A stretch of 64,000 bases of DNA, from the NCBI RefSeq assembly GCF_012974865.1, contig NZ_CP043633.1:682001-746000 (forward strand), given 5' to 3'. The position numbers and the translations under genes were made by a program. Of this stretch, positions 1 to 60,267 are shown piece by piece; position 1 is the stretch's first letter; the number at the start of each line of letters is the position of its first letter. The notes beneath the pieces are model-generated. The model was given only the letters and a program-made list of their open reading frames with translations, was not told the origin of the DNA and ran no database searches. This stretch comes from Nonlabens sp. Ci31 (lineage in GTDB: Bacteria > Bacteroidota > Bacteroidia > Flavobacteriales > Flavobacteriaceae).

Positions 1-769
1 CTAAACCATTGATCTGGCATATCGCTCCCACTACTTCCTCGGTAATTCCTGGAAATAGTTTTAAAACAACCACGCGATCCACAAGATCAGGTCGGTATCG
101 CATGCGGTTGGAATCCGGTACAGGTGTTTTTTCTTGTTTCGCTTTCGCGAAAGCGGGATCATCAACCTGCCATTTCCACAATAAACTTTTATCAATATTT
201 AAATTCACCCCACTAATCGCTAGTGGTGGGTAATTAGGCGAACTAAAGGCTTCAAAATGCTCAGCATTCATCTTTGCCGTTCTATTAGCCCGATACAATT
301 GGTATTCAAAATAAATACAAACCTCCTTAATGATCGGCCCGTCCTGATCCTGCTCTACCGCAAGTTGCAAGCTAGTGATCAAATTCTCCTTGGCATCGGT
401 ACGTAAATCACCTATAGGCAATTGGGAACCGGTAAGTATAATGGGCTTGGTAAGATTCTCAAACATAAAACTGAGCGTGCTACCCGTATAAGACATGGTG
501 TCACTACCATGAAGCACCACAAAGCCGTGGTAATCATCATAATTCTTATTGATGACATCACCTAGTTTGCGCCATTCTTCTAGGTTCATGTCTGAAGAAT
601 CTATAGGATCGTCAAAAGAAAAGGTATCTATCTCACAATCCAGCTGTTTTATTTCGGGAATATGAACAAGCAACTTTGAAAAGTCAAAAGCTCTTAAAGC
701 TTTGGTCTCCGGGTCTTTCATCATACCGATAGTTCCACCGGTATAAATCAATAGTATTTTAGGCTTCAT
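1..769 (-). CDS. ansA: Type I (cytoplasmic-type) L-asparaginase, 3' end outside window
   Basis: Hydrolyses L-asparagine to aspartate and ammonia. Reading on the minus strand from the ATG at 767-769 gives a start MKPKILLIYTGGTIGMMKDP with the catalytic-threonine motif TGGTIG. VLHGSDTMSYTGS follows, with the second-site Thr-Asp-type motif (HGSDT), and then KPIILTGSQLP. No signal peptide is present, which fits the cytoplasmic type I family. The frame stays open to base 1, so about 256 codons are present and the C-terminus is missing. The ATG lies 11 bases inside the end of the acyltransferase gene upstream, so the two are translationally coupled. An in-frame copy of the CGCTTTCGCGAAAGCG palindrome at 140-155 adds the residues AFAKA after WQVDDP. 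Confidence 0.9.
   Translation of the reverse strand, partial: MKPKILLIYTGGTIGMMKDPETKALRAFDFSKLLVHIPEIKQLDCEIDTFSFDDPIDSSDMNLEEWRKLGDVINKNYDDYHGFVVLHGSDTMSYTGSTLSFMFENLTKPIILTGSQLPIGDLRTDAKENLITSLQLAVEQDQDGPIIKEVCIYFEYQLYRANRTAKMNAEHFEAFSSPNYPPLAISGVNLNIDKSLLWKWQVDDPAFAKAKQEKTPVPDSNRMRYRPDLVDRVVVLKLFPGITEEVVGAICQINGL
140..155. repeat. Dispersed palindrome CGCTTTCGCGAAAGCG, exact copy
   Basis: This is an exact 16-bp palindrome inside the asparaginase gene. On the coding (minus) strand it is read as A-F-A-K-A between WQVDDP and KQEK. The flanks do not extend the palindrome. Confidence 0.9.
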
Positions 770-1889
770 TAGTGACTGCCAGTTTTTCTTTGTTCAACAC
801 GGGTCGTGCATACATGTTTAAGAAGCTTTCTACTGCCTTACGGTCTTCTACATTAACACGTAAACGCAACCTGCGTTCAAACTGCTGCATGTCGTGGTCT
901 GAATAATGCGTTTTGTATTTAGAACTGTTTGTCAGTAAATCATGAGCTACATAATTAGTAGGCCAAAGCTGGTAATTGGTCTGTATTTCTCTATCCAGAT
1001 GCTGTACAATGCGTTGCAACACTTGATTGGTACTTTGCTCTTCAAGAGCTTCTATATGAAAGGGCTTTGCCGCGTGGATATGGATGTGCTTTTTCTGACC
1101 TAAGGCTCCTTTTAAAATACTATTAAAATCTTCATTTTCAGATTTGATGTATTCTTCGTCGGCTTCTTTAGCAAGTAGTTCTGGCACTTTTAAAATATCA
1201 GTCGGATCGTACTCGTAAGAAATCGACACCGGGACAATACGCAAATTGTTCAAATAACTCTCTAAACCTTCTTTGCCAGCCGCGAGAGCGATCATTTTAA
1301 GCACGCCTTGTTCGGTGATATCGTTACCATCTTTAGTACGGCCTTGACGTTGCGCTACCCATACACTTCTATTGTCTTCGTGAATTAAGGAGTTGATATA
1401 CTCGCTGAGTTTCTTGCTACTCATTAAAATTTCCCTAGGGCTAACTCCTCTTTTTACTATAAAATTACGAGTAAGACGGCTTAGTGCGTTTACAAAAGGA
1501 CGCTGTACCAGGTTATCTCCTATAGCGCTTGCTGTTCGTATCAGACCTTTATTAAAAAGGGTGAGGTTGATCAAAGAAGTATCCAGAACAATGTCTCTAT
1601 GATTTGAAATATAGAGGTAGCTCTTTTTAGGATCTAACTGATCAAAACCCGAAGTAGTAAGTCCTGCACTAGATTCTGTTAGCACGGTCTCAACCGTTCT
1701 ACAAATCACATCACGCTGAAAATCATTGATAGATTTACAAGAGAGTATGATCTTTTTTGCCTCTTCGTAGTCCATGTCTTTAAACGTGTACTGGAAAAGT
1801 GATTTTATCATGGGGTGACGCACTGCGCTCTGAAGCGCAATTTGTACTTCAGCGTCATTAAAAAACCGTATGTCGTCGTATCTATTCAA
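759..1889 (-). CDS. 1-acylglycerol-3-phosphate acyltransferase-like (PlsC-type) protein
   Basis: A probable acyl-CoA/acyl-ACP-dependent acyltransferase of membrane lipid synthesis, 376 aa, longer than classical PlsC (about 240 aa). The acyltransferase block begins near residue 95 with SNHRDIVLDTS. The usual block I is HX4D; here the spacing from His to the last Asp is one residue longer (H-RDIVL-D), with an Asp also two residues after the His. A later VWVAQRQGRTKDG resembles the family's glycerophosphate-binding block. No clear signal peptide or membrane helix is seen. The gene sits between tatD (38 bases upstream) and ansA (11-base overlap), all on the minus strand. The lipid substrate cannot be told from sequence; phosphatidic acid or an amino-acid lipid are both possible. 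Confidence 0.75.
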   Translation of the reverse strand: MNRYDDIRFFNDAEVQIALQSAVRHPMIKSLFQYTFKDMDYEEAKKIILSCKSINDFQRDVICRTVETVLTESSAGLTTSGFDQLDPKKSYLYISNHRDIVLDTSLINLTLFNKGLIRTASAIGDNLVQRPFVNALSRLTRNFIVKRGVSPREILMSSKKLSEYINSLIHEDNRSVWVAQRQGRTKDGNDITEQGVLKMIALAAGKEGLESYLNNLRIVPVSISYEYDPTDILKVPELLAKEADEEYIKSENEDFNSILKGALGQKKHIHIHAAKPFHIEALEEQSTNQVLQRIVQHLDREIQTNYQLWPTNYVAHDLLTNSSKYKTHYSDHDMQQFERRLRLRVNVEDRKAVESFLNMYARPVLNKEKLAVTNEA

Positions 1890-1927
1890 ATCTTTGGGCT
1901 ATAAAAACAAATGTAATGATCTCCTTT

Positions 1928-5363: not shown

Positions 5364-6125
5364 ATGAGCCTATTCAAATTCAAAGAATTTACCATAGCTC
5401 AAGACCGCTGTGCTCAAAAAATAGGCACTGATGCTGTTTTATTGGGCGCTTGGGTAAGAACTTCTCAAGAACCCAGAACCATCCTTGATGTAGGAAGTGG
5501 TACCGGAGTTATTTCTTTGATGCTCGCACAAAGGTTTCCCAACTCCCATATAGAAGCTGTGGAAATAGATGTAGATGCCTACGAGCAAGCAACAGAAAAC
5601 TTTGAAAACAGTCCATGGGGCAATCGCTTATTTTGTTTTCATGCTGCCTTCCAAGAGTTTTATGAAGAGGTAGAAGAACGTTACGATCTCATTGTGAGTA
5701 ACCCACCATTTTATGATGCCGTCAGTGTCAAGAATACAGAACAGATCGAGGACAAACGCCAGCAAGCTAGATTTGATGACGCCTTGGCTTTTGAAGAACT
5801 GGTTTATGGTGTTTATCAATTGCTGGAAAGCGATGGGACTTTTGCCTGCATTATTCCTAAAGATAGAGAAAAGCGTTTTCTAGAAATAACGTCTCATTTT
5901 CAGTTAGAACCCGTGCGCACGACATACGTTAAAGGCACGGAAGACAGTAAAGTAAAAAGGTGCTTGATGGAATTTCGCTTTCGAGCCATGCCTGCCGGCA
6001 GGCAGAAAAGCGTGAAAAACAACTCTGCTATTCCTAAAATAGAAACGCTCGTCATTGAAAAATCAAGACACGATTATACAGAAGTTTATATAGGTCTTAC
6101 AAAAGACTTTTACTTGAAAATGTAG
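5364..6125 (+). CDS. trmN6: tRNA1(Val) A37 N6-methyltransferase-like protein (TrmN6/YfiC family)
   Basis: An AdoMet-dependent N6-adenine methyltransferase. It has the AdoMet-binding loop LDVGSGTG at residues 41-48 and the N6-adenine catalytic motif NPPF at 113-116. The N-terminus FKFKEFTIAQDRCAQKIGTD is typical of the family. Near the C-terminus (residues 209-214) a short insertion, MPAGRQ, comes from the palindrome CCTGCCGGCAGG. It falls in a variable loop after the phrase LMEFRFRA and probably does not disturb the fold. It is the last gene of rpsP-rimM-trmN6. The exact tRNA target is inferred from family. Confidence 0.85.
   Translation: MSLFKFKEFTIAQDRCAQKIGTDAVLLGAWVRTSQEPRTILDVGSGTGVISLMLAQRFPNSHIEAVEIDVDAYEQATENFENSPWGNRLFCFHAAFQEFYEEVEERYDLIVSNPPFYDAVSVKNTEQIEDKRQQARFDDALAFEELVYGVYQLLESDGTFACIIPKDREKRFLEITSHFQLEPVRTTYVKGTEDSKVKRCLMEFRFRAMPAGRQKSVKNNSAIPKIETLVIEKSRHDYTEVYIGLTKDFYLKM
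5976..6012. repeat. Composite palindrome: PAGRQ element flanked by CGCTTT/AAAGCG
   Basis: The palindrome CCTGCCGGCAGG (5991-6002) sits between CGCTTTCG (5976-5983) and GAAAAGCG (6005-6012). The outer halves resemble the two halves of the window's dispersed palindrome. The whole stays in frame in trmN6. Confidence 0.7.
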
Positions 6126-11896: not shown

Positions 11897-13297
11897 TTAA
11901 TTAAACCGTTCTTTTATCCAGCTTGCTATAAGTTGCAAGGTTGCTGGATCAAAGGTTTCTTCTATCTGCTCGTATTCTAAGCCACTGCCAGTTGTTGCAT
12001 TTTGAAATAAATGGTTCAGACCTGGTAATGTTTTTAAAGTTACCTCTTTGTTTCCCGCTTTCGCGAAAGCGGATTTCATACCAGATAAGTTGATTTCAGG
12101 GATTACTTGATAATCTAACGAACCATTAATCGCCAAAACTGGACAACTTACTTTTTCCAAATTAGTAGCAGGATCATAAGTTAAAAAGAAACGCATCCAG
12201 CTACCAGCAAATTGCTTGCTTACCTCTGTTATATAGGATTCAGAATATTTAGCCTGTAAGGCATCTGGTGCTTTAGTTGCTGCAGCGGTCATCATTATTT
12301 TAAGTTCTTGCTGAAGGTCTTCGTTTGTAGCATTTTTAGAAACTATAATCTTCTGAAATACTTGATCCATTAAGTTTATTTCAAAATTCACCTCCTTTTC
12401 TGGTGCACCTTTAAGCTCGGCTCCTTTTCTCATTTGTGGTAAGAGGACTTGATCACCTCGTAAACCTGGTCCTGCAAGTGAGACAAAGAACGCTACCTCC
12501 TTTTTATTGTTTGCAATTACTATAGGAGCAATCAAACCACCTTCACTATGTCCTATAAGTCCTATTTGTTTTTTATTGATATCCTTACGAGTATTGAGAT
12601 AGTTCACCGCAGCTTCTACGTCAGTAGCAAAGTCAGCACTAGTGGCATCTTTATGTATTCCCTCAGATTGCGCCACACCACGATCATCATACCTCAACAC
12701 GGCTATTCCGTTTCTGGTTAAATAGTCGGCAAGCACTAAAAAGGGTTTGTGGCCTACTATTTCTTCATTTCTATCTTGAGGTCCAGAGCCAGAAATCAAA
12801 ATCGCCACCGGCGGATTCTTTACCTCGCTAGGCAAGGTTAATGTTCCTGCTAATTTGATGTTGTTTGCTTTTGCATTGGTAAATAAGACTTCTTCCACCT
12901 TATAAGGAAAAGGGGCTTTAGGTTCTTGAGGCCTGTTGGGTTTTACTTCTTCATAGGCTTTCTTCTCTAAATTCAGCTCTCCAGAAAAGCTTCCTTGGGT
13001 AAAAGTTCCCATTACTTTATCACCCTTTAACTCGCCTGCATATTTAATTTTATACGCATTGAGAATTAAAGTAATTTTATTTCCTTGTACCGTTGTGGTG
13101 TCCATCGGAAGAAAACTTTTAGACTGCATGGGACTTTGCATGTTTGCGGTATACACACCATCCGTATTGGAGATTTCAAACACGAGTGGCATGCCTTGAA
13201 TTCCTCCTGTCCAAGAACCTTCAAATTCTTGTGCGTTTGATACTAGGGAACTTAGTAGAACTATGATCCAAAAAGTGATGTGGAGTGTTGTTTTCAT
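11897..13297 (-). CDS. Secreted alpha/beta hydrolase
   Basis: A 466-aa exported serine hydrolase. Residues 1-22 form a signal peptide ending SNAQ. An N-terminal beta domain of about 110 residues (EGSWTGGIQGMPL and following) precedes the alpha/beta-hydrolase core. The core shows ISGSGPQDRNEE, LRYDDRGVAQS and the nucleophile elbow GHSEGG, with a C-terminal PGLNHLF holding the catalytic His. Homologues are annotated as S9-like peptidases or esterases; the substrate cannot be decided. A palindrome copy at 12056-12071 adds AFAKA in a surface-like segment (KSAFAKAGNKEV). Confidence 0.88.
   Translation of the reverse strand: MKTTLHITFWIIVLLSSLVSNAQEFEGSWTGGIQGMPLVFEISNTDGVYTANMQSPMQSKSFLPMDTTTVQGNKITLILNAYKIKYAGELKGDKVMGTFTQGSFSGELNLEKKAYEEVKPNRPQEPKAPFPYKVEEVLFTNAKANNIKLAGTLTLPSEVKNPPVAILISGSGPQDRNEEIVGHKPFLVLADYLTRNGIAVLRYDDRGVAQSEGIHKDATSADFATDVEAAVNYLNTRKDINKKQIGLIGHSEGGLIAPIVIANNKKEVAFFVSLAGPGLRGDQVLLPQMRKGAELKGAPEKEVNFEINLMDQVFQKIIVSKNATNEDLQQELKIMMTAAATKAPDALQAKYSESYITEVSKQFAGSWMRFFLTYDPATNLEKVSCPVLAINGSLDYQVIPEINLSGMKSAFAKAGNKEVTLKTLPGLNHLFQNATTGSGLEYEQIEETFDPATLQLIASWIKERFN
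12056..12071. repeat. Dispersed palindrome CGCTTTCGCGAAAGCG, exact copy
   Basis: An exact copy inside the alpha/beta hydrolase gene, extended by one base pair on each side (CC...GG). It is read as S-A-F-A-K-A-G on the coding strand. Confidence 0.9.
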
Positions 13298-13440: not shown

Positions 13441-13707
13441 ATTTAAACATCATAAAATAAGATTCCCTAAAAATTATTTCACAATGAGTTGAGATACAAA
13501 TTTTGAATCGCCTTTCTCAATCTGTAGTAAGTATATACCAGTTGCTAAGGCTTCCGTGTTCACCTGGTATTCTCCTATTTCAGAAGTAGTATAACTGTTT
13601 ACTTTCTGACCCAATGAATTGTATAAAGTTACCGACTTTACTCCTGCTTGATTTGCAAAATTGATAAAAAATTCAGTTCCTACAACTGGATTAGGGTATA
13701 TGGCTAT

Positions 13708-13723
13708 CGCTTCTGCGAAAGCG
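13708..13723. repeat. Degenerate copy of the dispersed palindrome
   Basis: CGCTTCTGCGAAAGCG differs from the consensus at two adjacent bases. On the coding strand it gives A-F-A-E-A just before the T9SS sorting domain, at the linker where copies would be tolerated. Confidence 0.7.
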
Positions 13724-16700
13724 AGATCATCACCAACACTTAAGGTAACATCTTCAAATAGTACTTCAAATCTATTTGCTGCTATGCTTAATGCATCGCT
13801 AGGATCAACACTATAACTATAAACCGTGTTTTGATTGTTATCCAAATCAGTAAGTGTGTTGGTATAATTATCCTTTAAAATAGCTTGTTTTGCCATAAAA
13901 CCTACTGGAGCAAATTCTAAGGTGTAATTTTGCTGTCTGTAATTGTTTAATTCTAGGGGTAGTAGTTCCCCATGTTGTGGAATACCTCTACTTTCTACAC
14001 TTAAAATAGAACCATCAGTATGCAATCGTCCCAAATTTTCATCTAGATTGCTAAATTTAATCGCATCATTAGTATCCACTCCATTATTAGCAGCGTTTTC
14101 AAACCTTACTAACATTCCATCTATGGAACCCGATCCTTGTGCAAATTGACTGGTCTCGTATAAAGAGATCTTTAACTCGCCTTGAGGCACTACTGCTATA
14201 CTCGTTGGTGGTGGTGTTATGGCATTAGAAGGTCTAGATAAAACAAAACTAGCTGCTGAAACTCCAGAGGCTACCATAAAGGCAGACTGTCCCGGCTGTA
14301 AAAATCCTGCTTCGTCATAATCAGAATTTGCTGGAGTTGCTCCTATCATTTGATTGAGCTGCCTTCCATACGTACGGTAAGCGCCACGAGTATTTGCCAT
14401 AGGATCCCAAACAAAATAGAAACTAGATTTTACGGCATTGATATTAGTCGCGGCAAGATTAAATAATTTATTGAGCTCGTTTCCTAAAGGTAATTTGCTT
14501 TGATATGGATTACCTACTATTATAAAATTACCGTCTGTTGAAGCTATACTAGGCAACGTATAATTTACGTTTAATAATTGCCCTTTGGTTCTTAAAGTTG
14601 TGGAACCACTACTTAGGTTAGATGTGAGGTCTATATTACGATCTCCTCTTATCAATAATCTTGCATACTGACCAGCCACAAGAACATCTGTTGCATCATT
14701 AGTACCTGATGGAGGGCTAAACGTCTGGTTGATGTTATCCCAACCGAACATAGAAGGATTATTTGATCCTGTAACATCAAAACCATTTGCACCATTATTT
14801 CCAGTAATATGCGTACCATAACCTACTGGTAAATTACCATTTTCTTGCCAATTCTCATAAATGCTAGTGGTAGTAGTCACTGGCGAACTTACAAACCTAA
14901 AAGCTCTACGGTCTTTGTAGTATTGCTCAACAGTCAAGTCACCTATTACTGTAAGTTGCGATCCATCGATAAGTGCGGTTCTAGTTGCTGTACTACCTAA
15001 AGTGACGCTAGCTCCTGTGATATTAAGAACTGATGTACTTGCGGTGTCATCATTAAAGATAGACTCGTTGATTCTATAAGTTCCTGTAATACTTAGAGTT
15101 GCATTTGCTAGGTCTAAGACACCTATGTTAGCATTTGCAATGTCCCAAGTATTTGCAGCGGTCTGTCCATAAGCGATCCATCTAGAATTACTGGCTTCCA
15201 GAGTTCCTAATGCGTTTATATTGTTATCGATCAACACCTCCACATTTGCACCCAAAGTAAGTGTAGCTCCTGTTTCTATTGTCAGGTTGTTTGCTCTAAA
15301 ATTGCTCGGAATAGTCACGTCTTCTCTTATGATCACATTATCATCAAAATTTGCTAGGTCGCCCGCATGGCTTGGATCATTAGGTGTCCAAGCGCCACTT
15401 TCATATACATACGTTTTCGTAACATTCACGGTACGTGTTACCTCTGTGGCAGCATTGCTATTTACATCGGTAAAATTATAAGTGATCGTATAACTTCCTG
15501 CAGTATTTACATCTACCACATCACCCGCTACAACAGCAGTTAAAACAGTTGCGTCACAATTATCTGTAATAGTAGTTCCTGAATCTATAAAAGGAACTCC
15601 TAAAATAGCTTCTTCTACCGCATTACCGTTAAGGGTAATTACTGGTGCGATTGCATCTACCACAGTAACTAATAAAGGAGCTGTAGTAGAATTACCAGCA
15701 GCATCTGTTACTGTCACTAATGGTTGACTAATAAGTTTATAGGACAAGGTTGCCGCAGGATAACCATTAGGTAAGCTTGTTCCTGATAATGTAGGATAAA
15801 CTATAGGTGTTGTTGCAGCAACATCAAATTGAGAACTACCCATAATGAACAAGCCATTAGACGTATTATTGCTAATATTACTTCGATTAAAAGATACATT
15901 AACAGTGTTGCTATTGCGATCTTGCGAATTAAAACCATGAGCTGCAATCGTATATTCACCAGCTGGGATAACTATAGGTGTAGGTAATGCTTTGAATAGA
16001 TAGCCTTGGATTATATCACCGTCATTCTGACCGATAGTAAGCTCTGCAATGTTTACTCTAGTCCCACTTTGATTTTGCAATAACGCAACCGTAAAAACTC
16101 CTGCTGACTGTCTACCATTTATACCGTCATCAAAAACTCCTAATTTATCAATTGTTACAGGTTCTGTAAGTGTAAAATTACCACCTACCGTTCCGGCCCA
16201 ATCTTGATTACCAGAAAAATCACCATCAGCAGGTATGCTAGCATGCAGCTGTACAGAGATAGAAGGCGCATCTGCAACGTACAAGAAAGTACCTCCAGCA
16301 AAGAAATCGCTATTTTGAGATGTGTTACCAGGATACTGATCTACACCTGCATTAAATCGTATACCCATGCTGAAAATACTATTTCCTGAATCTCTAGAAT
16401 AGGTAATTGGTAGTCCACCGCTAAGTGCTGGATTACTATTACCATTTTTATCATTGTCAGAAAAACCATAAGCGACCACCATGTAATTACCATTAGGTAA
16501 CACTAATGGAGTGGCTAAAGGCTTAAATCTATATCCATTTTTTAACACTTCATCACTGCCACCAGTAAATACCATATTAGTTCCAGGTATTTTTGTTTGT
16601 GTGCTTTTATCATAAATATCAATGTAAATAGGTCCTATTATCCCATCATCATTATCATCAAAAACTCCTAATTGAGTAATAGTAAGGTTTTGTCCTGCTA

Positions 16701-17465
16701 AAACGGTTAAATCTTCACCTAGCGTACCGCCGTAATTTTGATTACCAGCAAATACCTGTGAGAACTGGTGTACTTGATTTTCTGTCGCTAATAGACCTAG
16801 CTGACTACAATCAAAACTAGCTGGACTAAAACTATAGGTCAAGTTTGCGGCATCGGTACAATTATCTGTGGCAGCTGTGGTTAACATACCAGCATTTAAT
16901 GAGATCCCTGCATTTACGGTAATGCTTTGGGTAGAAATTACTGGACCTGCTGTATCTAATGTAATGATTTGATCTTGTGTTGTCGTATTATTTGCAGCGT
17001 CTGTGTAACTCCATGTAATGGTAGTGTCTGTTGTAATAGGAAAGACAGCATTTGTAGTAGCCGTTATTGCTCCATCACAAACATCGCTTGCCGTAGGAAT
17101 AGTCAGATCAGTTAATTGAACCGTACTCGTACAATTTGAAAAGTCAGTAAGTACAAGAGTATCTGGTACTGGAGCAACTGTATCTCCTACATTTATAGAT
17201 AAACTAGAAGCTTCACCAAGTGTTGCACCACCTTCACCTCTTGCATAATAAGTGGTGTTTGCGCTTACTGTTGCGGTATAAGAATAACTAGTCGTTCCAG
17301 CTACTAATGGAATAGTTGCAATAGCAATGGGCATGCATACACTAGGGTCTGTATCATAAATTTTTAATTCTGTGTGATCATTTATTAACAGCTCTATGTT
17401 AAAAATAATAGCATCACCAGCAGCACATACATAATCAGTTGCTGCACTAATCTCAGCCTCTGCCA

Positions 17466-22881: not shown

Positions 22882-25162
22882 GGTCCTTTTGTTTTTTATG
22901 GTTTTTGCTTTTTGTTGTTTCGCTTTCGCGAAAGCGCAACAACAAAAGACTATCCAGTTGCAAAACAGCACGAAAGCAGACCACTTACAAACGCAGGAAA
23001 GCAAACCTACCTCTAGACCTAAAATCGGACTGGTCCTTTCTGGTGGTGGAGCAAAAGGACTGGCTCATATAGGAACTTTGAAAATCATTGATTCGCTCGG
23101 AATAAAAGTCGACTACGTGGCAGGAACAAGCATGGGGGCGATCGTAGGATCTCTTTATGCCTCTGGATATACTGGTAAACAAATCGATTCTATTTTTAAT
23201 ATCATTGATTTTGACAAAATCATTTCTGACGATATACCCCGTAATTCAAAAACCTATTATGAACGCAGAAGCAATGAACGCTATGCGGTAACTTTGCCTT
23301 TTAAAGATTTTAAAGTACTGCTTCCCTCCTCCTTGAGTAAAGGGCAAAATATCTATGACCTACTTTCTAGATTACTTGCTCATGTTAAAGACATAGACGA
23401 TTTTAGCAAACTACCCATTCCTTTTTTATGTATAGCTACAGACATTACTACTGGTGAAGAAGTAGTACTGGATAGCGGTTATTTACCAAAAGCTGTAAAT
23501 GCAAGCGGTGCGTTACCTTCTCTATTTGCACCCGTAGATATAGACGGTCAACTGCTTATAGATGGAGGGGTAACCGATAATTATCCTATCGATAAATTAA
23601 AAGAACGCGGCATGGACCTCATTATAGGTGTAGATGTGCAGGAAGATTTAAAGTCGCTACAAGAATTACGTGGCGCACTAGATATCCTATCGCAGATCAA
23701 TAACTTCCGTACGATTAACGATATGAAGGTGAAAGCTCCAAAAACAGATGTCTACATCGCTCCTGATATAGCAGCCTATACGGTAGTCTCTTTTGACCAA
23801 GGTCGCGAGATTATTCAAAAAGGAGAAGAAGCGGCCAGAGAACATGCAGACCAACTTAAAAGCCTGGTCTTTGACAACTATTCCAGACCAGAATTAATAG
23901 TAAAAACTGCTGACAGTATTTATCTCAACGAGATCAATGTAAAGGGAAATAAGAATTATACCAGAGCTTTTATTGTAGGCAGGTTTAAGGTAAAAACACC
24001 TGGTATGGTGGCTTATAAAGATTTGAGCAGCGGTATCAACAATTTGCAGGCAACCGATAATTTTGCTAAAATCAATTATGAAATCATCACAGACGATGAT
24101 GGCTCCATATTAGAAATAGATTTAGTTGAAAGCGATGCGCGTAATTATTTACGACTGGGACTACACTATGATGAACTGTTGCGCAGTGCAGCACTTATCA
24201 ATCTAGCTCGCAAAAATGTATTTTTTGATAACGATATTATATCAGCTGACGCGATCATAGGAGATAATCTTAGGTACAATTTTGATTATTATATCGATAA
24301 AGGCCGTTACTGGTCCATAGGCTTGCACAGTGAATTTATAAATTTTGAACAAAATGTAAATGCCGCGTTTGTAGAGGATGTCATTGACATTACATCACTA
24401 AGTGTCAATAGCCTTAGAATAAAATATAGAGACTGGACACAACAAGCCTTTTTACAGACGAGAATTAATAAATCGGTGAATTTTGTTGCAGGAATTGAAG
24501 TAAAATCACTTCATATTTTTACAGAAACATTGAGCACTGGAGACCCTACTAACGACACAACCGATTTCTCAAACGGGAGTATGGGAAGTTTTTATGGTAA
24601 AGTACTGGTAGACTCTTATGACAATGCGCTTTTCCCTTCTTCTGGATGGAAAATAGAAAGTGATTTTCACTTATATGCCTTCAATACCGAATTTGGAGAA
24701 CGGTTTAAAGAATTCTCTATGGCACAAGTAGAAGTTGGTCATGCCCAGAGGTTTGGTAATTTTACGATACGGGGAAATGCACATCTAGGTATTACCGTGG
24801 GTGATACAGATAATTCTTCTATGGACTTTTTCTTAGGAGGGTATGGCTCCCGCAGAATCAATAATCTAATTCCGTTTTATGGATATGATTTTATAAGTAT
24901 GAGCGGTGGCTCCCTAATTAAGGTGCTTTTTGAAGCAGATTATGAAGTGTTCAAAAAAAATCATGTTGTATTCAGCGCTAATTTTGCAAGCACACAAGAC
25001 AATTTATTTGAACAACGCGACTGGTTCAGCAATGCAAGATATACTGGTTATGCCGTAGGTTATGGTATAGAAACCTTTTTAGGTCCGTTAGAATTAAAAT
25101 ACAGCTTCTCTCCCCAACAGAAAGACGGACAGGTATTTGTGAATATCGGTTTTAAATTTTGA
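22868..25162 (+). CDS. Patatin-like phospholipase with POTRA/BamA-type barrel
   Basis: A 764-aa exported protein that combines a lipase with an outer-membrane barrel, like the PlpD (type Vd) class. Residues 1-23 are a signal peptide. The patatin domain has the oxyanion loop LSGGGAKG near 58-65, the nucleophile GTSMG at 86-90 (Ser88) and the catalytic-Asp motif DGGV at 232-235. A POTRA-like segment covers about 345-420, followed by a beta-barrel to an end in F-K-F. It presumably acts on phospholipids at the cell surface. The palindrome copy at 22921-22936 encodes AFAKA at the end of the signal peptide, forming its A-K-A cleavage site. Confidence 0.9.
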   Translation: MKKSRVLLFFMVFAFCCFAFAKAQQQKTIQLQNSTKADHLQTQESKPTSRPKIGLVLSGGGAKGLAHIGTLKIIDSLGIKVDYVAGTSMGAIVGSLYASGYTGKQIDSIFNIIDFDKIISDDIPRNSKTYYERRSNERYAVTLPFKDFKVLLPSSLSKGQNIYDLLSRLLAHVKDIDDFSKLPIPFLCIATDITTGEEVVLDSGYLPKAVNASGALPSLFAPVDIDGQLLIDGGVTDNYPIDKLKERGMDLIIGVDVQEDLKSLQELRGALDILSQINNFRTINDMKVKAPKTDVYIAPDIAAYTVVSFDQGREIIQKGEEAAREHADQLKSLVFDNYSRPELIVKTADSIYLNEINVKGNKNYTRAFIVGRFKVKTPGMVAYKDLSSGINNLQATDNFAKINYEIITDDDGSILEIDLVESDARNYLRLGLHYDELLRSAALINLARKNVFFDNDIISADAIIGDNLRYNFDYYIDKGRYWSIGLHSEFINFEQNVNAAFVEDVIDITSLSVNSLRIKYRDWTQQAFLQTRINKSVNFVAGIEVKSLHIFTETLSTGDPTNDTTDFSNGSMGSFYGKVLVDSYDNALFPSSGWKIESDFHLYAFNTEFGERFKEFSMAQVEVGHAQRFGNFTIRGNAHLGITVGDTDNSSMDFFLGGYGSRRINNLIPFYGYDFISMSGGSLIKVLFEADYEVFKKNHVVFSANFASTQDNLFEQRDWFSNARYTGYAVGYGIETFLGPLELKYSFSPQQKDGQVFVNIGFKF
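22910..22947. repeat. Dispersed palindrome with long arms, inside a signal peptide
   Basis: The exact core CGCTTTCGCGAAAGCG (22921-22936) is flanked by one mismatch and then ten further paired bases on each side (TTTTTGTTGT.../...ACAACAAAAA-type arms). Total length is 38 bases. It encodes the end of the patatin protein's signal peptide. Confidence 0.85.
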
Positions 25163-26505: not shown

Positions 26506-26526
26506 TTTAATATTTTAAAAATAACA

Positions 26527-27111: not shown

Positions 27112-27225
27112 AAAATTATGATTTTTAAAAGTATAGATATAACAACTCACTTAAGAGCCATGTGGTAGTAAAGATTTCTTTTACTACTACTAGAACCCTT
27201 TATTTATTCCATTAAAAAATACAAT

Positions 27226-28389: not shown

Positions 28390-28390
28390 T

Positions 28391-28420
28391 AAAATGATAG
28401 TTAGTTAGTTATCATTTTGG
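28391..28420 (+). terminator. Possible terminator after hppD
   Basis: Arms AAAATGATA and TATCATTTT enclose a GTTAGTTAGT-type loop just past the hppD stop. The A+T-rich stem and short T-run make it weak. Confidence 0.4.
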
Positions 28421-28475
28421 AATAGACTTTGCAATAGAAGGTGGTGGGACTAATTCACGATCAACTCTTATAAAT

Positions 28476-29279: not shown

Positions 29280-29404
29280 CCCTTTTAAGGCCTTAATAAT
29301 AAAGAAAATAAGTCCTGATCGTATTTAGGTTAAATATAGTTAAGACTATGGCCTTAAGAATTGATAGAACCCGCTAGGTTCACTACTTTTGCCAGTCATT
29401 CTAA

Positions 29405-30382
29405 ATGAACAACATGTCCGAAGAAATCAGCCCAGAAATTGCCCAGCGCATTAAATTGCTCGAGGATAAGTTTAAAAATTCTGGTCAAGACATGCTATCT
29501 TACTTAGACGGACTGCTTTATGACACCTATGCCACTTACTGGGATTATATAAGATTAGACACCTTACTAAGTCTTCAAGTAACGTCTACAGAGTTTCCTG
29601 ACGAGATGATATTTATAAGTTATCATCAGATCACAGAATTGTATTTCAAGTTGATCATTCATGAACAAATGCAAATCATAGAAAGCAAACCGCTTACAGC
29701 TACATTCTTTAAAGAAAAAATAATACGTATCAACAGGTATTATACCGTATTGATCAACTCCTTTGAAGTGATGATTCAAGGAATGGAACGCGACCAATTT
29801 CTTAAATTTAGAATGTCTTTACTTCCTGCAAGTGGCTTCCAGAGTGCTCAGTTTAGAATGATAGAGTTCTATAGCAGTGATTTAGTTAATTTAGTTCATC
29901 CCTCTGTTAGGTCTCGCTTTCGCGAAAGCGGAAAAAACCACACACAACTAGAATTATTTGAAAATATCTACTGGAAAAAAGGAGGTATCGATAGGCATAC
30001 TGGAGAAAAAACGCTCACACTAAAACAGTTTGAAAAGCGTTACACTCCTAGACTTTTAAGAATTGCAAAAGAAGTAGAACACACCAACTTAAATCAACGC
30101 TACTTAGCACTACCAAAAGAAGAACAAACACAAGAGCTTCAGGATGCATTGCGCGTATTAGACCAAAATGCAAACATCAATTGGTTGCTCATGCATATGG
30201 GAGCTGCACATAGGTATTTACGCAAAGAAGGAAAAGCAGTAAAAGCAACTGGAGGAACTAACTGGAAGGAATTTCTACCACCTAGTTTTCAAAAAATCTC
30301 ATTTTTTCCATCGCTATGGACGCAAGAAGAGCACGATAACTGGGGAAAACAGTGGGTAGATCACTTATTAAACACAAAATAA
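29405..30382 (+). CDS. Tryptophan 2,3-dioxygenase family protein
   Basis: A 325-aa all-helical heme protein of the TDO family, whose members open the indole ring of tryptophan to N-formylkynurenine. Key phrases are DTLLSLQ, FPDEMIFISYHQITELYFKL (His of YHQ fits the catalytic His) and AAHRYLRKEG, which supplies a later His. KATGGTNWKEFLP is the substrate-loop region. It is longer than typical bacterial TDO (about 280 aa). An insertion from the palindrome (RFRESGKNHTQ) at 29915-29930 falls mid-protein. It is immediately followed, with no gap, by the M23 peptidase gene. No kynureninase is present. Confidence 0.82.
   Translation: MNNMSEEISPEIAQRIKLLEDKFKNSGQDMLSYLDGLLYDTYATYWDYIRLDTLLSLQVTSTEFPDEMIFISYHQITELYFKLIIHEQMQIIESKPLTATFFKEKIIRINRYYTVLINSFEVMIQGMERDQFLKFRMSLLPASGFQSAQFRMIEFYSSDLVNLVHPSVRSRFRESGKNHTQLELFENIYWKKGGIDRHTGEKTLTLKQFEKRYTPRLLRIAKEVEHTNLNQRYLALPKEEQTQELQDALRVLDQNANINWLLMHMGAAHRYLRKEGKAVKATGGTNWKEFLPPSFQKISFFPSLWTQEEHDNWGKQWVDHLLNTK
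29915..29930. repeat. Dispersed palindrome CGCTTTCGCGAAAGCG, exact copy
   Basis: An exact copy in the tryptophan-dioxygenase-family gene. It is read in the alternative frame as S-R-F-R-E-S-G rather than AFAKA. Confidence 0.9.
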
Positions 30383-31693: not shown

Positions 31694-33325
31694 ATGAAAA
31701 ACATCAACCCTACTTCTACTGCGGCATGGAAAGCGCTAGCAGATCATTACAAAACAGCAAAAAACTTTAACCTCAAAGAAGCCTTTCAAAACAATCCTGA
31801 TCGTGCAAAAGAGCTGACCATACAAGACGGAGATTTTTATTTAGACCTTTCTAAAAATTTGATTCTTAAGGAAACACAAGAGAAATTAGTAGACCTCGCT
31901 AACCAATGTCATCTTACAGAAGCTATTGATTCTTATTTTAATGCTGAGAAAATAAATGTGACAGAAAATCGTGCCGTTTTACATACCGCATTAAGAACCC
32001 ATGACACTAACTCTAAAGTAGGAGAAAAAGTAACCGCAGCAATTGCCAGCAAAAAGAAAATGTTTGCTTTTGTAGATGCCGTAAATAAGGGAGAGATTAC
32101 TGCTGCAAATGGAAAGAAATTTGATACCGTTGTAAATATAGGAATAGGTGGTAGCGATCTAGGACCTGAGATGATCTATGAAGCCATGCAAGCTTATAAA
32201 AATGATCTTATCCTTCATTTTGTCTCTAACGTAGAAGGAGATCATGTGGAGGAAACCTTAAAAAAGATCCAGCCCGAAACAACATTATTCGTTATCGTTT
32301 CTAAGTCTTTTGGAACGCAAGAAACGCTTACTAACTCAACAACCATTAGAAATTGGTTTACTGATAAAGTAGGAGCATCGGCAGTAGCAAAGCATTTTAT
32401 TGCGGTAAGTAGCAATGTACAACGAGCCGTAGATTTTGGAATTGATCAAGAAAATATTTTCCCTATGTTTGATTGGGTAGGTGGCCGTTTTTCTTTGTGG
32501 AGTACCGTAGGGATGTCTGTTGCCTTAGGAATAGGTTCTAAAAATTTTCAGAGCTTGCTTGATGGTGCTCATGATATGGACATCCATTTCAGGAATACCT
32601 CTTTTGATAAAAACATTCCAGTTCAGTTAGCTTTAATTACTATATGGTACAACAACTTTTTTAAAGCGCAAAGTGAAGCTGTAATACCCTACACTCAATA
32701 CCTTCATAGACTTCCAGCTTATTTACAGCAAGCCATAATGGAAAGCAACGGTAAAAGTGTGGACCGCAATGGAAATCACGTGAATTATGAAACTGGGAAC
32801 ATCGTTTGGGGGGAACCAGGTACCAACTCACAACATGCCTTTTTTCAATTGATACATCAAGGAACTAAATTGATTCCTGCTCAATTTATCGCTTTCGCGA
32901 AAACGAAATACAACCACCCAGACCATCAAAACAAGCTTATGGCAAATTTCTTTGCACAAACAGAAGCTTTAATGAATGGAAAAACAAGTCAAGAAGCAGC
33001 CCAAGATTTAGCTTCCTCAGGAAAACCACAAACTGAAATTGACCAACTGGTTCCTTTCAAAGTCTTTGAAGGAAATAAACCTACGACTACCATATTAATA
33101 GACGAGCTTACACCGCAAAGTATAGGTAAGCTGGTGGCTATGTATGAACACAAAATATTTGTCGAAGGAGTGATCTGGAACATATACAGTTATGATCAGT
33201 GGGGAGTAGAATTAGGAAAGGTCTTAGCCGATGCTATTCTAACCGACATTGAAAACTCCAAATCTGACGGCCATGACGCCAGCACAAGCGCTCTTTTACA
33301 AAAGTTTTTTGCTCTAAATAATTAA
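31694..33325 (+). CDS. pgi: Glucose-6-phosphate isomerase
   Basis: The glycolytic isomerase that interconverts glucose-6-phosphate and fructose-6-phosphate. At 543 aa it is full length. Hallmarks are VNIGIGGSDLGPEM, SKSFGTQETLTNS, FDWVGGRFSLWSTVG, the catalytic-site region GTNSQHAFFQLIHQGT, and the C-terminal NIYSYDQWGVELGK. A degenerate palindrome copy at 32890-32905 (IAFAKTKY) lies in a surface segment. It sits between the M23 gene and the TonB receptor, with a separate upstream gap of 57 bases. Confidence 0.97.
   Translation: MKNINPTSTAAWKALADHYKTAKNFNLKEAFQNNPDRAKELTIQDGDFYLDLSKNLILKETQEKLVDLANQCHLTEAIDSYFNAEKINVTENRAVLHTALRTHDTNSKVGEKVTAAIASKKKMFAFVDAVNKGEITAANGKKFDTVVNIGIGGSDLGPEMIYEAMQAYKNDLILHFVSNVEGDHVEETLKKIQPETTLFVIVSKSFGTQETLTNSTTIRNWFTDKVGASAVAKHFIAVSSNVQRAVDFGIDQENIFPMFDWVGGRFSLWSTVGMSVALGIGSKNFQSLLDGAHDMDIHFRNTSFDKNIPVQLALITIWYNNFFKAQSEAVIPYTQYLHRLPAYLQQAIMESNGKSVDRNGNHVNYETGNIVWGEPGTNSQHAFFQLIHQGTKLIPAQFIAFAKTKYNHPDHQNKLMANFFAQTEALMNGKTSQEAAQDLASSGKPQTEIDQLVPFKVFEGNKPTTTILIDELTPQSIGKLVAMYEHKIFVEGVIWNIYSYDQWGVELGKVLADAILTDIENSKSDGHDASTSALLQKFFALNN
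32890..32905. repeat. Dispersed palindrome, one mismatch
   Basis: CGCTTTCGCGAAAACG differs from the consensus at one base. It is read as A-F-A-K-T within pgi. Confidence 0.8.
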
Positions 33326-38070: not shown

Positions 38071-41000
38071 CCGGCATAATCGTGTTCAGTATATCGTAAA
38101 CTCGATCTACCGTTCGTACATTTTCTACCGTAAGCAGCAATCGCAATCCTGAACGCGTTTGTTTTTCTTTCATCCTTAAAATCTTAGGATTGGTCTGCAC
38201 CGCTTTTAAGACTCTAGAAAAGGATTCACTTTGATAGAAACCGCTTTGTTGATCAGAGATAAAGTATCCTATAAACTTGCCTTCTTTCATCACAATCTTT
38301 TCTAATCCCAATCGAGTAGCCACCCATTTGATTCTTACACTAGTCAGTAAATTCTCTGCTTCTTCCGGAAGTTCCCCAAATCGGTCTATAAGCTCTTTCT
38401 TATAAGTGTCTAAAGCTTTTTCATCTTCCACCTCGTTGAGCTTAGAATACAAAGACAAACGCTCTGTAATGGAGTTGATATAATCATCTGGAAAGAGCAA
38501 TTCAAAATCAGAATCTACAGTGACCTCAGTAACGTGTTTCTTCTCTTTATCATTGGTCTCATAAAGATCAGCAAACTCATTTTCTTTTAATTCTGTGATG
38601 GCTTCGCTCAATATTTTTTGATAGGTATCAAAGCCTATTTCGTTGATGAAACCACTTTGCTCACCACCTAAAATATCTCCAGAGCCTCTTATTTCAAGAT
38701 CCTTCATAGCAATATTAAACCCACTGCCCAGATCTGAGAACATTTCTAATGCTTGAATACGTTTTCTAGCATCCTCAGTCATCACATCATAAGGAGGTGT
38801 AATAAAGTAACAAAATGCTTTCTTATTACTGCGACCTACACGACCACGCATCTGGTGCAAGTCTGAAAGTCCAAAATTATTAGCATTGTTGATGAAAATC
38901 GTGTTGGCGTTAGGAACATCTAAACCACTTTCAATAATCGTAGTAGAAACCAGCACATCAAACTCTCCATTGATAAAGGCAAGCATCAGGTTTTCTAGTT
39001 TCTTTCCTTCCATCTGTCCGTGACCGATACCTATTTTTGCATCGGGAACAGAACGCTGTATCATTCCAGCGACTTCTTTGATATTCTCAATACGGTTGTG
39101 AACAAAGAATACTTGTCCTCCACGAGAAATCTCATAACTGATCGCATCTCGTATGATTTCTTCACTAAAACGCACCACATTGGTCTCTACCGGATGTCGG
39201 TTAGGTGGCGGTGTTTTAATCACACTTAAATCACGTGCCGCCATTAAAGAAAACTGTAAAGTTCTAGGTATAGGTGTGGCCGTCAATGTAAGCGTATCTA
39301 TATTTTCTTTAAGTGTTTTGAGCTTGTCCTTCACCGCAACACCAAATTTCTGTTCTTCATCAATAATTAGCAGTCCTAGGTCTTTAAAAACAATAGATTT
39401 ACTCACCAATTGATGCGTGCCGATAACGATATCAATAGAGCCATTTTCTAGCCCTTCCAAGACTCCTTTACGTTCTTTAGCAGTTCTAAATCGATTTAAA
39501 TAATCCACTTTTACAGGAAGATCTACAAGGCGTTCATTAAATGTTTTTGCATGTTGAAATGCAAGGATAGTAGTTGGAACAAGCACGGCCACTTGCTTGC
39601 CATTAACGGCCGCCTTAAAAGCTGCTCTTATGGCCACTTCTGTTTTTCCAAAGCCTACATCACCACACACAAGTCGGTCCATAGGACGGTCGCTCTCCAT
39701 GTCTTTCTTTACATCATCCGTCACACTGCTTTGATCTGGAGTGTCTTCATAGATAAAGCTAGCTTCCAGCTCATTTTGTAAATACCCATCTGGCGCATAT
39801 TGAAATCCTTTTTGTGCACGACGTTTGGCATATAATTTAATCAGGTCAAAGGCGATTTGCTTAACTCTCGTCTTGGTTTTAGCCTTTAATTTTTTCCATG
39901 CTGGACTGCCTAACTTATATACCTTCGGGGGCTTGCCATCCTTACTGCTATATCTGGTGATTTTGTGTAAAGAATGTATAGAAACATATAAGATATCACG
40001 CTCCCCATAAATCAGCTTGATCGCTTCTTGCTTTTTACCGTTCACATCTATCTTTTGTAATCCGCCAAACTTCCCGATCCCGTGGTCAATATGTGTTACG
40101 TAATCTCCTATGACTAATACGTTGAGTTCCTTTAAGGTGATCGCCTGCTTTTTTGCATAACCGTTCTTTAAATGAAACTTGTGGTACCGATCAAATATTT
40201 GGTGATCAGTATAACAAACCATTCGCAAATCATGACTTATAAAACCTCGATACAGAGGCATCACGAATGTTTCATACTGCACCTCAGCTTTCATATCGTC
40301 AAAGATGTCATGAAAACGTTTGGCTTGCTGCTCGCTACTGCAAAAAAGGTAATTTTTATATCCGGCTGACTCGTTTTCCTTTAAATTTTCAATCAGTAAA
40401 TCAAACTGCTTGTTAAAACTAGGCTGCGGTGATGTGTTATAAACTACTACCCCACTTGAGGTAGTAAATACGATATGATTGTATTGCTTAAGCTGTGTTT
40501 TGATCAACTTGCTATCACTGAAAATTTCGTGAGGTGTCAACTGCCTTACTTCTCCTTGCAACTCATTATATGCCTGTTCCGCTTTCGCAAAAAGCGAATC
40601 CACACGACTGTATAACAAATCCATATTCATCGAGAAAACCACCGTATTATTAGAAAGGTATTTTAAAAAGCTCTCCCGAGTTTCTTCAGACTGCTTATTC
40701 TCCACATTAGGAATAATGGAGATTTTTTTTGTTTGCTCTTTTGAGAGTTGTGTTTCCACATCAAATACGCGTATAGAATCGATCTCATTTCCAAAAAACT
40801 CGATGCGATAAGGTTCGTCATTCGAAAAAGAAAACACATCTAGAATTCCACCGCGTAGAGAAAACTCTCCAGGTTCTGTTACAAAATCAACTCGCTTGAA
40901 TTTATACTCAAACAACACCTCATTAGCAAACTCAATAGATATTTGATCACCTACCGCAATTTTAAGCGTGTTTTTATCTAACTCCTTACGGGTAACTACT

Positions 41001-48812: not shown

Positions 48813-48822
48813 GCGCTTTCGC
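48813..48822. repeat. Half-site of the dispersed palindrome
   Basis: GCGCTTTCGC lies between the gdhA stop and its terminator; the second arm is missing. It may be a decayed copy. Confidence 0.5.
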
Positions 48823-52265: not shown

Positions 52266-52933
52266 TACTTCAATTTAAACTTGATATAAGTAATTGCTTT
52301 TCCTGTCTCTAAATATTGTTTTTCATAAAAGGTTTGAGTTCCTGTTACTTCTTCTGGAGACTCTGTATTAGAATAAATATCATGATGAGCATACAGGATT
52401 TCCTCCCCTCTTGCTTGTAATAATCCTAAGGTGTAACCGTGCATGAACTCAGAGTCTGTTTTGAGGTTCATAACACCATCAGGTTGTAAGATGTGTTTGT
52501 ATTTGGATAGAAAATCAGGGTTGGTCATCCTGTGCTTAGTGCGTTTATACTTGATTTGAGGATCTGGAAATGTGATCCATATTTCTTGTATTTCCGCTTT
52601 CGCGAAAACGAAATCTACCAACTCAATCTGAGTTCTCATAAAGGCAACGTTATCGAGCCCTTCTTCTAGAGCCGTTTTTGCTCCACGCCAGAAACGCGCA
52701 CCTTTAATGTCAATACCTATAAAATTACGGTCGGGGTATTTACGGGCTAACGCAACAGTATACTCCCCTTTACCACAACCCAACTCAAGAGTTATAGGGA
52801 GATTATTTCCAAAAAACTCATTCCATTTTCCCTGATGTTTAAAACCAGAGACCACCTCCTCCCGAGAGGGCTGAATGACATTTTTGAATGTTTCGTTTTC
52901 GTTAAATCGTTTGAGTTTATTCTTACTTCCCAA
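52265..52933 (-). CDS. trmB: tRNA (guanine-N7-)-methyltransferase
   Basis: Methylates N7 of G46 in the variable loop of tRNA. The 222-aa protein has the AdoMet-binding loop LELGCGKGEYTVAL and the following NFIGIDIKGARFW. The characteristic IWITFPDPQIKYKRTKHRM, with the conserved Asp and the Lys/His residues, follows. A near-exact palindrome copy (52595-52610) encodes FVFAKAE just before that motif. It is first in the trmB-LysE-ATL run. Confidence 0.95.
   Translation of the reverse strand: MGSKNKLKRFNENETFKNVIQPSREEVVSGFKHQGKWNEFFGNNLPITLELGCGKGEYTVALARKYPDRNFIGIDIKGARFWRGAKTALEEGLDNVAFMRTQIELVDFVFAKAEIQEIWITFPDPQIKYKRTKHRMTNPDFLSKYKHILQPDGVMNLKTDSEFMHGYTLGLLQARGEEILYAHHDIYSNTESPEEVTGTQTFYEKQYLETGKAITYIKFKLK
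52595..52610. repeat. Dispersed palindrome, one mismatch
   Basis: CGCTTTCGCGAAAACG, the same variant as in pgi. On the coding strand of trmB it reads V-F-A-K-A-E. Confidence 0.8.
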
Positions 52934-55895: not shown

Positions 55896-55933
55896 TTTAT
55901 GTATTCTGCTTTCGCGAAAGCGGAATACATAAA
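55896..55933. repeat. Dispersed palindrome with long arms, intergenic copy
   Basis: TTTATGTATTC and GAATACATAAA flank the core (55907-55922, one base off consensus) with a single mismatched pair between arm and core. Total length is 38 bases. The rest of the arm is unrelated to other copies. Confidence 0.85.
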
Positions 55934-59185: not shown

Positions 59186-59204
59186 AATTGAAGTTTTACG
59201 GCTG

Positions 59205-59212
59205 CAAATATA
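59205..59212 (-). promoter_or_regulatory. Possible -7 element of tyrS (TATATTTG)
   Basis: It matches TAnnTTTG on the minus strand. It shares the extended context TATATTTGCA with the gdhA box. No -33 TTG was found. Confidence 0.4.
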
Positions 59213-59268
59213 TGTGGTTTGGCTGTTTTTAAAGGTTTTTTAAGCCTTGTATTGTTTATTTTTACACT

Positions 59269-60267
59269 ATGATTTTAATCACAGGAGCAACAGGATTAGT
59301 AGGGGGACATTTGTTATACCGCTTTCGCGAAAGCGGAAAAAATATCATTGCTACCTATCGTGATATGAAAAGCTTAGATAAAACTCGGGAGATCTTTGAA
59401 TCTTATGAAAAAGGTGCCGGTGCCCTAGTAGATACTTTTCAATGGAAACAGTCCGATATTCTAGAAACACCAAGCCTAGAAATGGCAATGCAAAATGTTA
59501 CAACGGTTTATCATTGTGCCGCTGCGATAGATCATCTTCCTTTTGAGGAAATGAAAAATATCAACATGCGCGGTACAGAAAATATGATAAATGTAGCTCT
59601 CGCTCTAGGCGTTAAGAAATTTTGCCATGTAAGCAGTATAGCAGCACTAGGCGAAGCTATAGGCAATAGACCGGTAAATGAGGACGATTTTTTCAATCTA
59701 GACGGACTGAATACCAATTATGCGATCACTAAATTTGGCGCAGAAATGGAAGCCTGGCGAGGAACCCAAGAAGACCTGGATGTTATCATCGTTAACCCAG
59801 GTGTTATCATAGGAGAAGGAAACTGGAAAAGTGGCTCTGGTCAACTGATCAGTAAAATGGCCTCTGGAAATAAATTTTATACCAAGGGCAGTAGCGGTTT
59901 TATAGATGTGCGAGATGTCACACGAGCCATGCAATACCTTACAGAAAGCGAACTTAAAAATGACCGGTATATTCTCGTTGCAGAAAACAAAACCTATCGC
60001 GAGGTTTTAGATCAAATTGCTTTAAGCTTACAGAAATCTAAGCCCAATATTCAACTCAAAAGCGGTTTTTTAAAATTCATTTATTACCTGCTTAAAGTTC
60101 CTAATTTATTAGGTTTTACACCTAGATTAAGTATGGCAAAAGTGCAGTCTATGACATCAAAAACTAAGTATTCTAATGCTAAAATTAAATCAGTATTGAA
60201 CTTTGAGTTGACACCTGTACAGAAAACTATTGATCGAGTTGCTACTTTTTATAGGCAGAGGAACTAA
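59269..60267 (+). CDS. NAD-dependent epimerase/dehydratase (extended SDR)
   Basis: A 332-aa Rossmann-fold oxidoreductase. The nucleotide-binding loop is GATGLVGG at residues 5-12. The phrase CHVSSIAALGE and the later LNTNYAITKFGAE carry the catalytic Tyr-x-x-x-Lys. The palindrome copy at 59320-59335 encodes YRFRESG directly after the binding loop, in the first helix, so the insertion is ancient or neutral. It acts on an unknown sugar-nucleotide or sterol-like substrate. It converges with the DUF4296 gene with only one base between. Confidence 0.88.
   Translation: MILITGATGLVGGHLLYRFRESGKNIIATYRDMKSLDKTREIFESYEKGAGALVDTFQWKQSDILETPSLEMAMQNVTTVYHCAAAIDHLPFEEMKNINMRGTENMINVALALGVKKFCHVSSIAALGEAIGNRPVNEDDFFNLDGLNTNYAITKFGAEMEAWRGTQEDLDVIIVNPGVIIGEGNWKSGSGQLISKMASGNKFYTKGSSGFIDVRDVTRAMQYLTESELKNDRYILVAENKTYREVLDQIALSLQKSKPNIQLKSGFLKFIYYLLKVPNLLGFTPRLSMAKVQSMTSKTKYSNAKIKSVLNFELTPVQKTIDRVATFYRQRN
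59320..59335. repeat. Dispersed palindrome CGCTTTCGCGAAAGCG, exact copy
   Basis: An exact copy, extended by one paired base on each side, in the epimerase gene. It is read Y-R-F-R-E-S-G. Confidence 0.9.

Follow-up and report, generated by a model that had tools for sequence, protein, structure and literature searches.

A 16-bp perfect palindrome, CGCTTTCGCGAAAGCG, recurs along a stretch of 64,000 nucleotides from Nonlabens sp. Ci31 (contig NZ_CP043633.1, positions 682,001 to 746,000, forward strand; the whole stretch is called the window below) and forms the core of a longer element. This element is two-fold symmetric and spans about 46-66 bp, the palindrome being flanked by an arm of 15-25 bp on each side. 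That the extended element exists and is kept is well supported; its purpose is what we infer. It may be a palindromic DNA-uptake (self-DNA) sequence, a tentative reading that we rate somewhat below an even chance. Put more broadly, and held with a little more reserve, it could be a symmetric and evenly placed address of self-DNA in three genera of Flavobacteriaceae, by which a putative dimeric reader would decide which DNA is taken up, kept or organised, and which some phages and islands carry as well.

The window was scanned with up to 2 mismatches, an expectation was computed and 100 shuffles served as control. Nine matches were found where 0.02 were expected, and none of the 100 shuffles reached nine, in line with the low chance expectation given in a preliminary description of the window. 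The genome-wide count proposed there gave 355 exact copies in the source genome (G000; 3.74 Mb, one contig) and 0 for the reversed-pattern control. Other Nonlabens genomes referred to below are G002, G004, G006 and G009. Copy numbers were 180-737 in 23/23 Nonlabens genomes and 138-711 in 18/18 genomes of a second genus, that of G274. This second motif-rich genus appears to be Dokdonia, judging from the PGI of G274, which is 80% identical to a Dokdonia PGI and groups with two Dokdonia sequences at full support; two Dokdonia loci of 17.6 kb each hold 4 and 2 exact copies. Among 397 Flavobacteriaceae genomes, six had more than 100 copies (four Nonlabens, G258 with 153 and G274 with 630) and 391 had 0-13, and no copy was present in any of the 47 genomes counted from other families of the order. 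The motif-rich state is restricted to three genera among those sampled. Single-gene trees do not resolve whether these genera have one shared origin.

The mismatch spectrum of the source genome was taken on 464 kb (20 stretches and the window), where 46, 22, 7, 3 and 9 copies occurred at 0, 1, 2, 3 and 4 mismatches. In the same 464 kb, four rearranged palindromes had no copy at 0-2 mismatches, and two close variants gave matches only at two mismatches, in numbers equal to the motif's own copies. The inner TCGCGA was found outside sites about as often as expected in the four larger samples (observed/expected 74/62, 14/15, 48/45 and 22/23), and 10/5 and 12/7 times in two small ones. Exact and one-mismatch copies stood at 33:4 in G002, 16:1 in G006, 35:9 in G004, 13:4 in G274 and 8:2 in G009; the ratio of 46:22 in the source genome suggests a lineage that is losing sites. 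Sites lie both in and between genes. In six genomes, 64 of 149 sites were outside any open reading frame (ORF) of at least 130 aa, and 54 of the 129 Nonlabens sites not at stretch ends (42%) fell outside called genes, compared with 16% of the sequence. The remaining 85 sites in the six genomes read AFAKA (49), RFRES (21) or LSRK (15), so that the earlier statement of mostly AFAKA with two RFRES holds for the window and is too narrow beyond it. Another word, AGAATATTCT, was over-represented in named Flavobacteriaceae loci; it mostly recurs at similar offsets from pgi, probably as conserved codons, and was set aside.

The arms were first apparent in 35 sites, in which each strand was enriched in G and T over about 5-30 bp of its 5' flank and in A and C on the 3' side; this bias was weak past 60 bp and absent by 200 bp. 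A profile of 136 sites from five Nonlabens genomes, partly non-independent since the G009, G006 and G002 stretches hold orthologues of window sites, gave a half-site consensus of G at -14, T at -12, -9 and -3, and a pyrimidine at -2 and -1. C made up 1-13% from -3 to -24, except for 21% at -21. Upstream of the 49 AFAKA-frame sites, C occupied the third codon position in 0/49 cases at each of -3, -9, -12 and -15, in 3 at -6, 4 at -18 and 16 at -21; downstream, G did so in 0, 2 and 1 cases at +3, +6 and +9. As the flank preference is seen at silent codon positions, it acts on DNA. The arms of 23 one-mismatch copies were the same as those of exact copies. Local composition was rejected as the cause: the flanks of 616 other 10-bp palindromes of the same genome showed no asymmetry and had background composition. 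In the 136 Nonlabens sites, pairing between mirrored flank positions did not exceed what composition predicts; each arm follows the consensus independently of the other, as expected of a protein-binding site rather than a stem. With sites picked at up to 3 mismatches, which biases the core value upwards, the core held about 30-32 bits and the arms a further 6-12 in four Nonlabens genomes, where locating the sites in their own genome takes about 12; G274 had 27 bits in the core and 3 in the arms, against 12 needed. A surplus of this kind would be expected if cells have to distinguish their own DNA from foreign DNA. Beside the core, lineages differ in dialect, with TYY in Nonlabens and KTA in G274.

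Close pairs of copies are avoided. Intervals were taken between the first listed sites only and compared with 5000 random placements. In the source genome (99 intervals, from the first 100 listed of 355 sites) 1% of intervals were shorter than 0.2 of the median, compared with 13% in simulations. The coefficient of variation of spacing was 0.67 versus 0.99 in this genome and 0.46 versus 0.95 in G004 (26 intervals), and 0/5000 simulations were as low. Short intervals were also too few in G002 and G016 (32 intervals each; P about 0.01), and G481 (99 intervals, from the first 100 listed of 704 sites) had 0 below 800 bp versus 15% expected, a limit chosen with the interval list in view.

Conservation was assessed for exact sites inside alignments of at least 300 columns, a site being counted as kept if another lay at the aligned place or at most 25 bp from it. 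Exact sites were kept in 6/7 (G006 to G002), 4/5 (G000 to G006), 6/8 (G009 to G006) and 3/6 cases (G002 to G009), where about 4% of aligned 16-mers were identical; these four comparisons have genomes in common. Between G000 and G009, with 25% of aligned 16-mers identical, 5/5 sites were kept. The protein-binding signal that the preliminary description had considered is backed by these conserved positions, together with the perfect dyad, the symmetric flank preference at silent sites and the spacing.

Three genes were compared outside the genus, the phage portal gene having been set aside for want of a usable alignment. The printed region of the PGI alignment was gapless in all 38 rows, 36 of them from outside the genus; these read FIG (34/36), FIC (1) or FIL (1), and both Nonlabens rows read FIAFAK, the glycine of the 34 rows being replaced by alanine where the motif sits. 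The phage terminase aligned without gaps to that of the site-less Winogradskyella phage Peternella. Tryptophan 2,3-dioxygenase (TDO) sequences with the motif had a loop 3 residues longer, and further changes (15 rows, of which L031 and L070 are not TDO). Comparison with orthologues, which had been proposed as a check for clean insertion, revealed no 16-bp insert in any of the three; in these genes the sites arose by substitution or small indels.

Sites are also found in mobile and viral DNA. Forty-two motif-poor Flavobacteriaceae genomes had 1-13 copies, often clustered, and distances of 933, about 2446-2481 and 3460 bp recurred among the listed places. The copies in G155 lie in a metal-efflux island with an ACR_tran pump, an outer membrane efflux gene, a multicopper oxidase, a P-type ATPase and an RteC gene. 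ORFs in G146 (which together with G155 makes up L207-L209) and G033 (L189-L191) match this island in size and spacing, the annotation being that of G155 only. The presence of its sites in motif-poor genera is a trace of gene flow. In 424 kb of sequence from eighteen viral records there are 62 sites with at most 1 mismatch. Two of these records had informative gene matches: one has an integrase, and the other encodes a terminase that shares 54.5% identity with that of Peternella, a transposase-bearing phage. For one viral contig, a search at the DNA level returned no relatives. In phages P12024S and P12024L, isolated on Nonlabens and 35.7 kb each, no site with up to 3 mismatches was present; both are apparently virulent, as their gene lists name no integrase.

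On the uptake reading, a dimeric protein would recognise the element as double-stranded DNA, as the dyad and the arms suggest, and the element would tag DNA of the own kind in natural transformation. Site-bearing DNA would be taken up and recombined more often, and this bias would let sites accumulate in all DNA that resides in the chromosome. A second site on the same fragment would add nothing, hence the avoidance of close pairs, and DNA living outside the chromosome, like that of virulent phages, would have no sites. An uptake tag is favoured by the surplus of information, the close-pair avoidance, the altered PGI residue, the difference between resident and non-resident DNA, and the Riemerella-type uptake genes of these genomes. 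A search for ComEC, DUF5689 and CarboxypepD_reg genes found the ComEC family in 18/18 motif genomes and DUF5689 in 13/13. DUF5689 and CarboxypepD_reg are domains of two proteins reported as essential for transformation in Riemerella (PMC8459023), and the likeness here is one of domains. R. columbina is reported to prefer its own DNA, in a paper that leaves the uptake sequence open (PMC7965970). In the source genome, a DUF5689 gene, a CarboxypepD_reg gene and a divergent Exo_endo_phos_3 gene lie together at about 1,464,674-1,470,198 of C1 (L275, 8674-14198). BLAST groups place the three together in 9/9 genomes whose DUF5689 region was compared, which gives the putative DNA-uptake genes a nuclease-like neighbour.

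Several points weigh against an uptake function. We know of no palindromic uptake sequence; the known uptake words are one-sided, and the word here is perfectly palindromic, with symmetric arms. At one site per about 4-10 kb, the density is lower than in Haemophilus or Neisseria. The uptake genes and their neighbourhood are alike in motif-rich and motif-poor genera and do not explain the restriction to three genera: ComEC and DUF5689 occur in nearly all motif-poor genomes examined (G051 has neither match). The competence of the motif-rich genera is putative. Long gaps kept the coefficient of variation of spacing from falling below random in G002, G016 and G481. The viral records came to notice through a site, were selected on the appearance of their flanks and include several near-copies; P12024S and P12024L are related to each other, and the term virulent rests on gene lists. 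A competence receptor peculiar to the motif genera was considered and rejected: DUF5689 proteins had 446-512 aa in 26/27 rows (728 in G144) with similar neighbours in both groups, and in their tree the motif rows did not form one clade. The reader protein was not found among the ParB and uptake-gene candidates examined.

Many of the same observations could also be accounted for by two rival readings, a chromosome-organising site and a two-way Chi-like site. Somewhat unlikely, in our estimate, is the chromosome-organising site, at which a dimeric, clade-specific nucleoid or membrane-tethering protein would bind each palindrome, with one site per several kb, in principle like Noc, SlmA or MatP. 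The perfect dyad with arms, the avoidance of close pairs and the conserved positions all suit such a role, and so do the sites carried by islands and viruses, part of whose DNA resides in the chromosome. Against it, a search that covered the ParB family found no paralogue peculiar to the motif genomes, which keep a normal parS. There is also no gradient over the first 1.0 Mb of the source genome, next to which parS lies at 1.09 Mb (0-0.5 Mb has 49 sites and 0.5-1.006 Mb has 51, the rest of the chromosome being only sampled), and richness in only three of the sampled genera speaks against an organising site as well. So does a stretch of 94 kb without any site in G002 (C1:131,677-225,871; L184-L188). 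The GC content is 33.4% over the 98 kb around it, and its twelve ORFs longer than 700 codons share one strand and reach 4944 codons; the stretch is probably a recent arrival.

Re-targeting of the ParB/parS system was hinted at by lower ParB_N scores in motif genera and was rejected in view of canonical parS and an unchanged ParB. ComEC scores were also lower on average in these genera, so the lower ParB_N scores look like general divergence. One ParB_N protein of about 300 aa was present in 18/18 motif genomes; extra ones, of about 600 aa, were found only in G018 (2) and G019 (1), and this kind also occurs in the motif-poor G038 and G042. parS was exact in 11/11 Nonlabens genomes and within 1 mismatch in Dokdonia (at 2 mismatches the reversed control gave 0-4). 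In the source genome, two parS-like sites 1.9 kb apart (1,090,577 and 1,092,470 of C1) are a probable marker of the origin region; each of the 11 Nonlabens genomes searched has a similar pair.

A two-way Chi-like site, from either side of which a helicase-nuclease of the AddAB/RecBCD type or a partner would be switched, with RecA loading on the T/G-rich strand 5' of it, is improbable. RecA prefers GT-containing DNA, which agrees with the T/G-rich flank 5' of the site on either strand; the spacing of 4-10 kb resembles that of Chi, and 33/33 genomes encode a PDDEXK_1 protein whose length, about 900 aa, is like that of AddB. Yet this nuclease is present in motif-poor genera too, and known Chi sites are asymmetric words of 5-8 nt read as a single strand, whereas the element is palindromic. 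Lone CGCTTTCG half-sites were few, with observed/expected values of 9/3.4 in G000, 3/1.4 in G004 and 1/0.2 in G006, and 0 observed in G002, G274 and G258.

We give very little credence to a hairpin, for instance a transcription terminator or an mRNA stem: 27/56 measured distances from intergenic sites to the 3' end of a neighbouring gene were at most 50 bp and two sites have complementary flanks, but in general the mirrored flanks do not pair beyond composition, 75/138 Nonlabens sites are in genes, and the intergenic ones track intergenic length (14 convergent, 28 tandem, 12 divergent). Less credible still is the mobile or spread element of the preliminary description, a palindrome like the Rickettsia palindromic elements or miniature inverted-repeat elements that multiplies by transposition, to which the high copy number and the interruption of one copy, apparently of a second, by CCTGCCGGCAGG (short palindromes do insert in the source genome) would lend themselves, and which is contradicted by the lack of clean insertion in pgi, terminase and TDO, by arms that obey a consensus instead of being target sequence, and by the avoidance of short intervals.

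Within the window, all five exact copies named in the preliminary description were recovered. That at 140..155 lies in a minus-strand frame open for 264 codons and running off the window edge, and is exact in G009 and G006. The copy at 12056..12071 (SAFAKAG) is in an alpha/beta hydrolase gene, exact in G009 and absent in G006. Near the 5' end of a patatin-like gene (22868-25162), the copy at 22921..22936 reads AFAKA and is exact in G009 and G006, with 2 mismatches in G002; on the plus strand its flanks exemplify the T/G-rich, C-poor 5' arm (22896..22920) and the mirrored A/C-rich, G-poor 3' arm (22937..22961), a pattern that is an average over sites and both strands. Two copies read RFRES, one at 29915..29930 in a TDO-like gene (exact in G009, G006 and G002) and one at 59320..59335 in an epimerase-like gene (exact in G009 and G006).

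The near-exact copies have one mismatch each, as described: at 32890..32905 in pgi (AFAKT; the same in G009, exact in G002 and G006), at 52595..52610 in a trmB-like (Methyltransf_4) gene (VFAKA; exact in G009 and G006), and at 55907..55922, with complementary flanks. Of the copies called degenerate, that at 13708..13723 (AFAEA) has two mismatches and lies in a gene with a secretion-tail domain (13474-18015), and that at 40580..40596 (LFAKA), in mfd, is the palindrome with one extra A and one change; three relatives share the extra base and read CGCTTTCGCGAAAAGCG. G002 and G006 have a complete site where the half-site at 48813..48822 aligns. The copy described as interrupted, at 5976..6012 in a methyltransferase gene (5364-6125), is intact in G009 and G002, has one mismatch in G006 and is split in the window by about 21 bp carrying CCTGCCGGCAGG. 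Ten of the twelve sites are within open frames, as had been stated; those at 48813 and 55907 are outside every ORF of at least 120 aa.

The second short palindrome, CCTGCCGGCAGG, has 4 copies in the 464 kb of the source genome (window 5976-6012; L162 at 773 and 1067; L164 at 8319) and none in the sampled G009 and G002 stretches; 2/4 copies interrupt the 16-bp palindrome, at 5976-6012 and, apparently in a degenerate form of it, at L164 8319. Directly after pgi, a TonB-plug/CarboxypepD_reg beta-barrel gene (33442-36672) is BLAST-related to the DUF5689 neighbour and occupies the same place in G274, G258, G029 and G028. Homogentisate dioxygenase-like, glyoxalase/HPPD-like, DUF3108 and TDO-like genes form a run at 25348-30382.

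An uptake function would make the element the first palindromic uptake sequence known to us and a handle on the uptake route proposed for Flavobacteriaceae; as an address of self-DNA, it would have no predecessor among palindromic genome-wide recognition sequences of its length. A role in chromosome organisation would add a new type of site in a group with little-known nucleoid factors. Either way it marks recent DNA exchange: in motif-poor genera the copies are often clustered, with recurring distances, and one cluster is a metal-efflux island. New here are the extended arms, the close-pair avoidance, the keeping of orthologous copies, the origin by substitution or indel, the carriage by viruses and an island, and the finding that no hairpin is kept. 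The openly licensed PMC literature, to the extent that its text was available, yielded no genome-wide recognition sequence of this sort for Bacteroidota, which is weak evidence of absence; for TTTCGCGAAA, the available part yielded a text on words absent from genomes, unrelated to the motif.

Among known systems, parS and Noc sites are likewise 16-bp palindromes with TTTC/GAAA that are read by dimers, and their registers differ from that of the element. HIP1 of cyanobacteria (GCGATCGC) is also a highly iterated palindrome of genes and spacers in one lineage; it has 8 bp and is much denser, whereas the element has 16 bp and arms, and the HIP1 word was not among the ten most over-represented 8-bp palindromes. 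Rickettsia palindromic elements share the position in frame within unrelated genes, but the element is far shorter, has conserved arms and shows no clean insertion in three genes. A mobile element, HIP1 and ParB/parS are disfavoured. Chi sites are alike in their spacing of a few kb and in GT-rich DNA on the 5' side, and differ from the element, which is palindromic, has 16 bp plus arms and lacks orientation. The DNA uptake sequences, USS (uptake signal sequences) of Pasteurellaceae and DUS (DNA uptake sequences) of Neisseriaceae, resemble the element in having hundreds of near-exact copies throughout the genome, in and between genes, a spacing more even than chance, helper positions in the flanks, lineage dialects and accompanying competence genes. 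The element, whose uptake role is putative, differs from them in its perfect palindrome, its two symmetric arms, its 16-bp core, its lower density and the other uptake machinery of its hosts.

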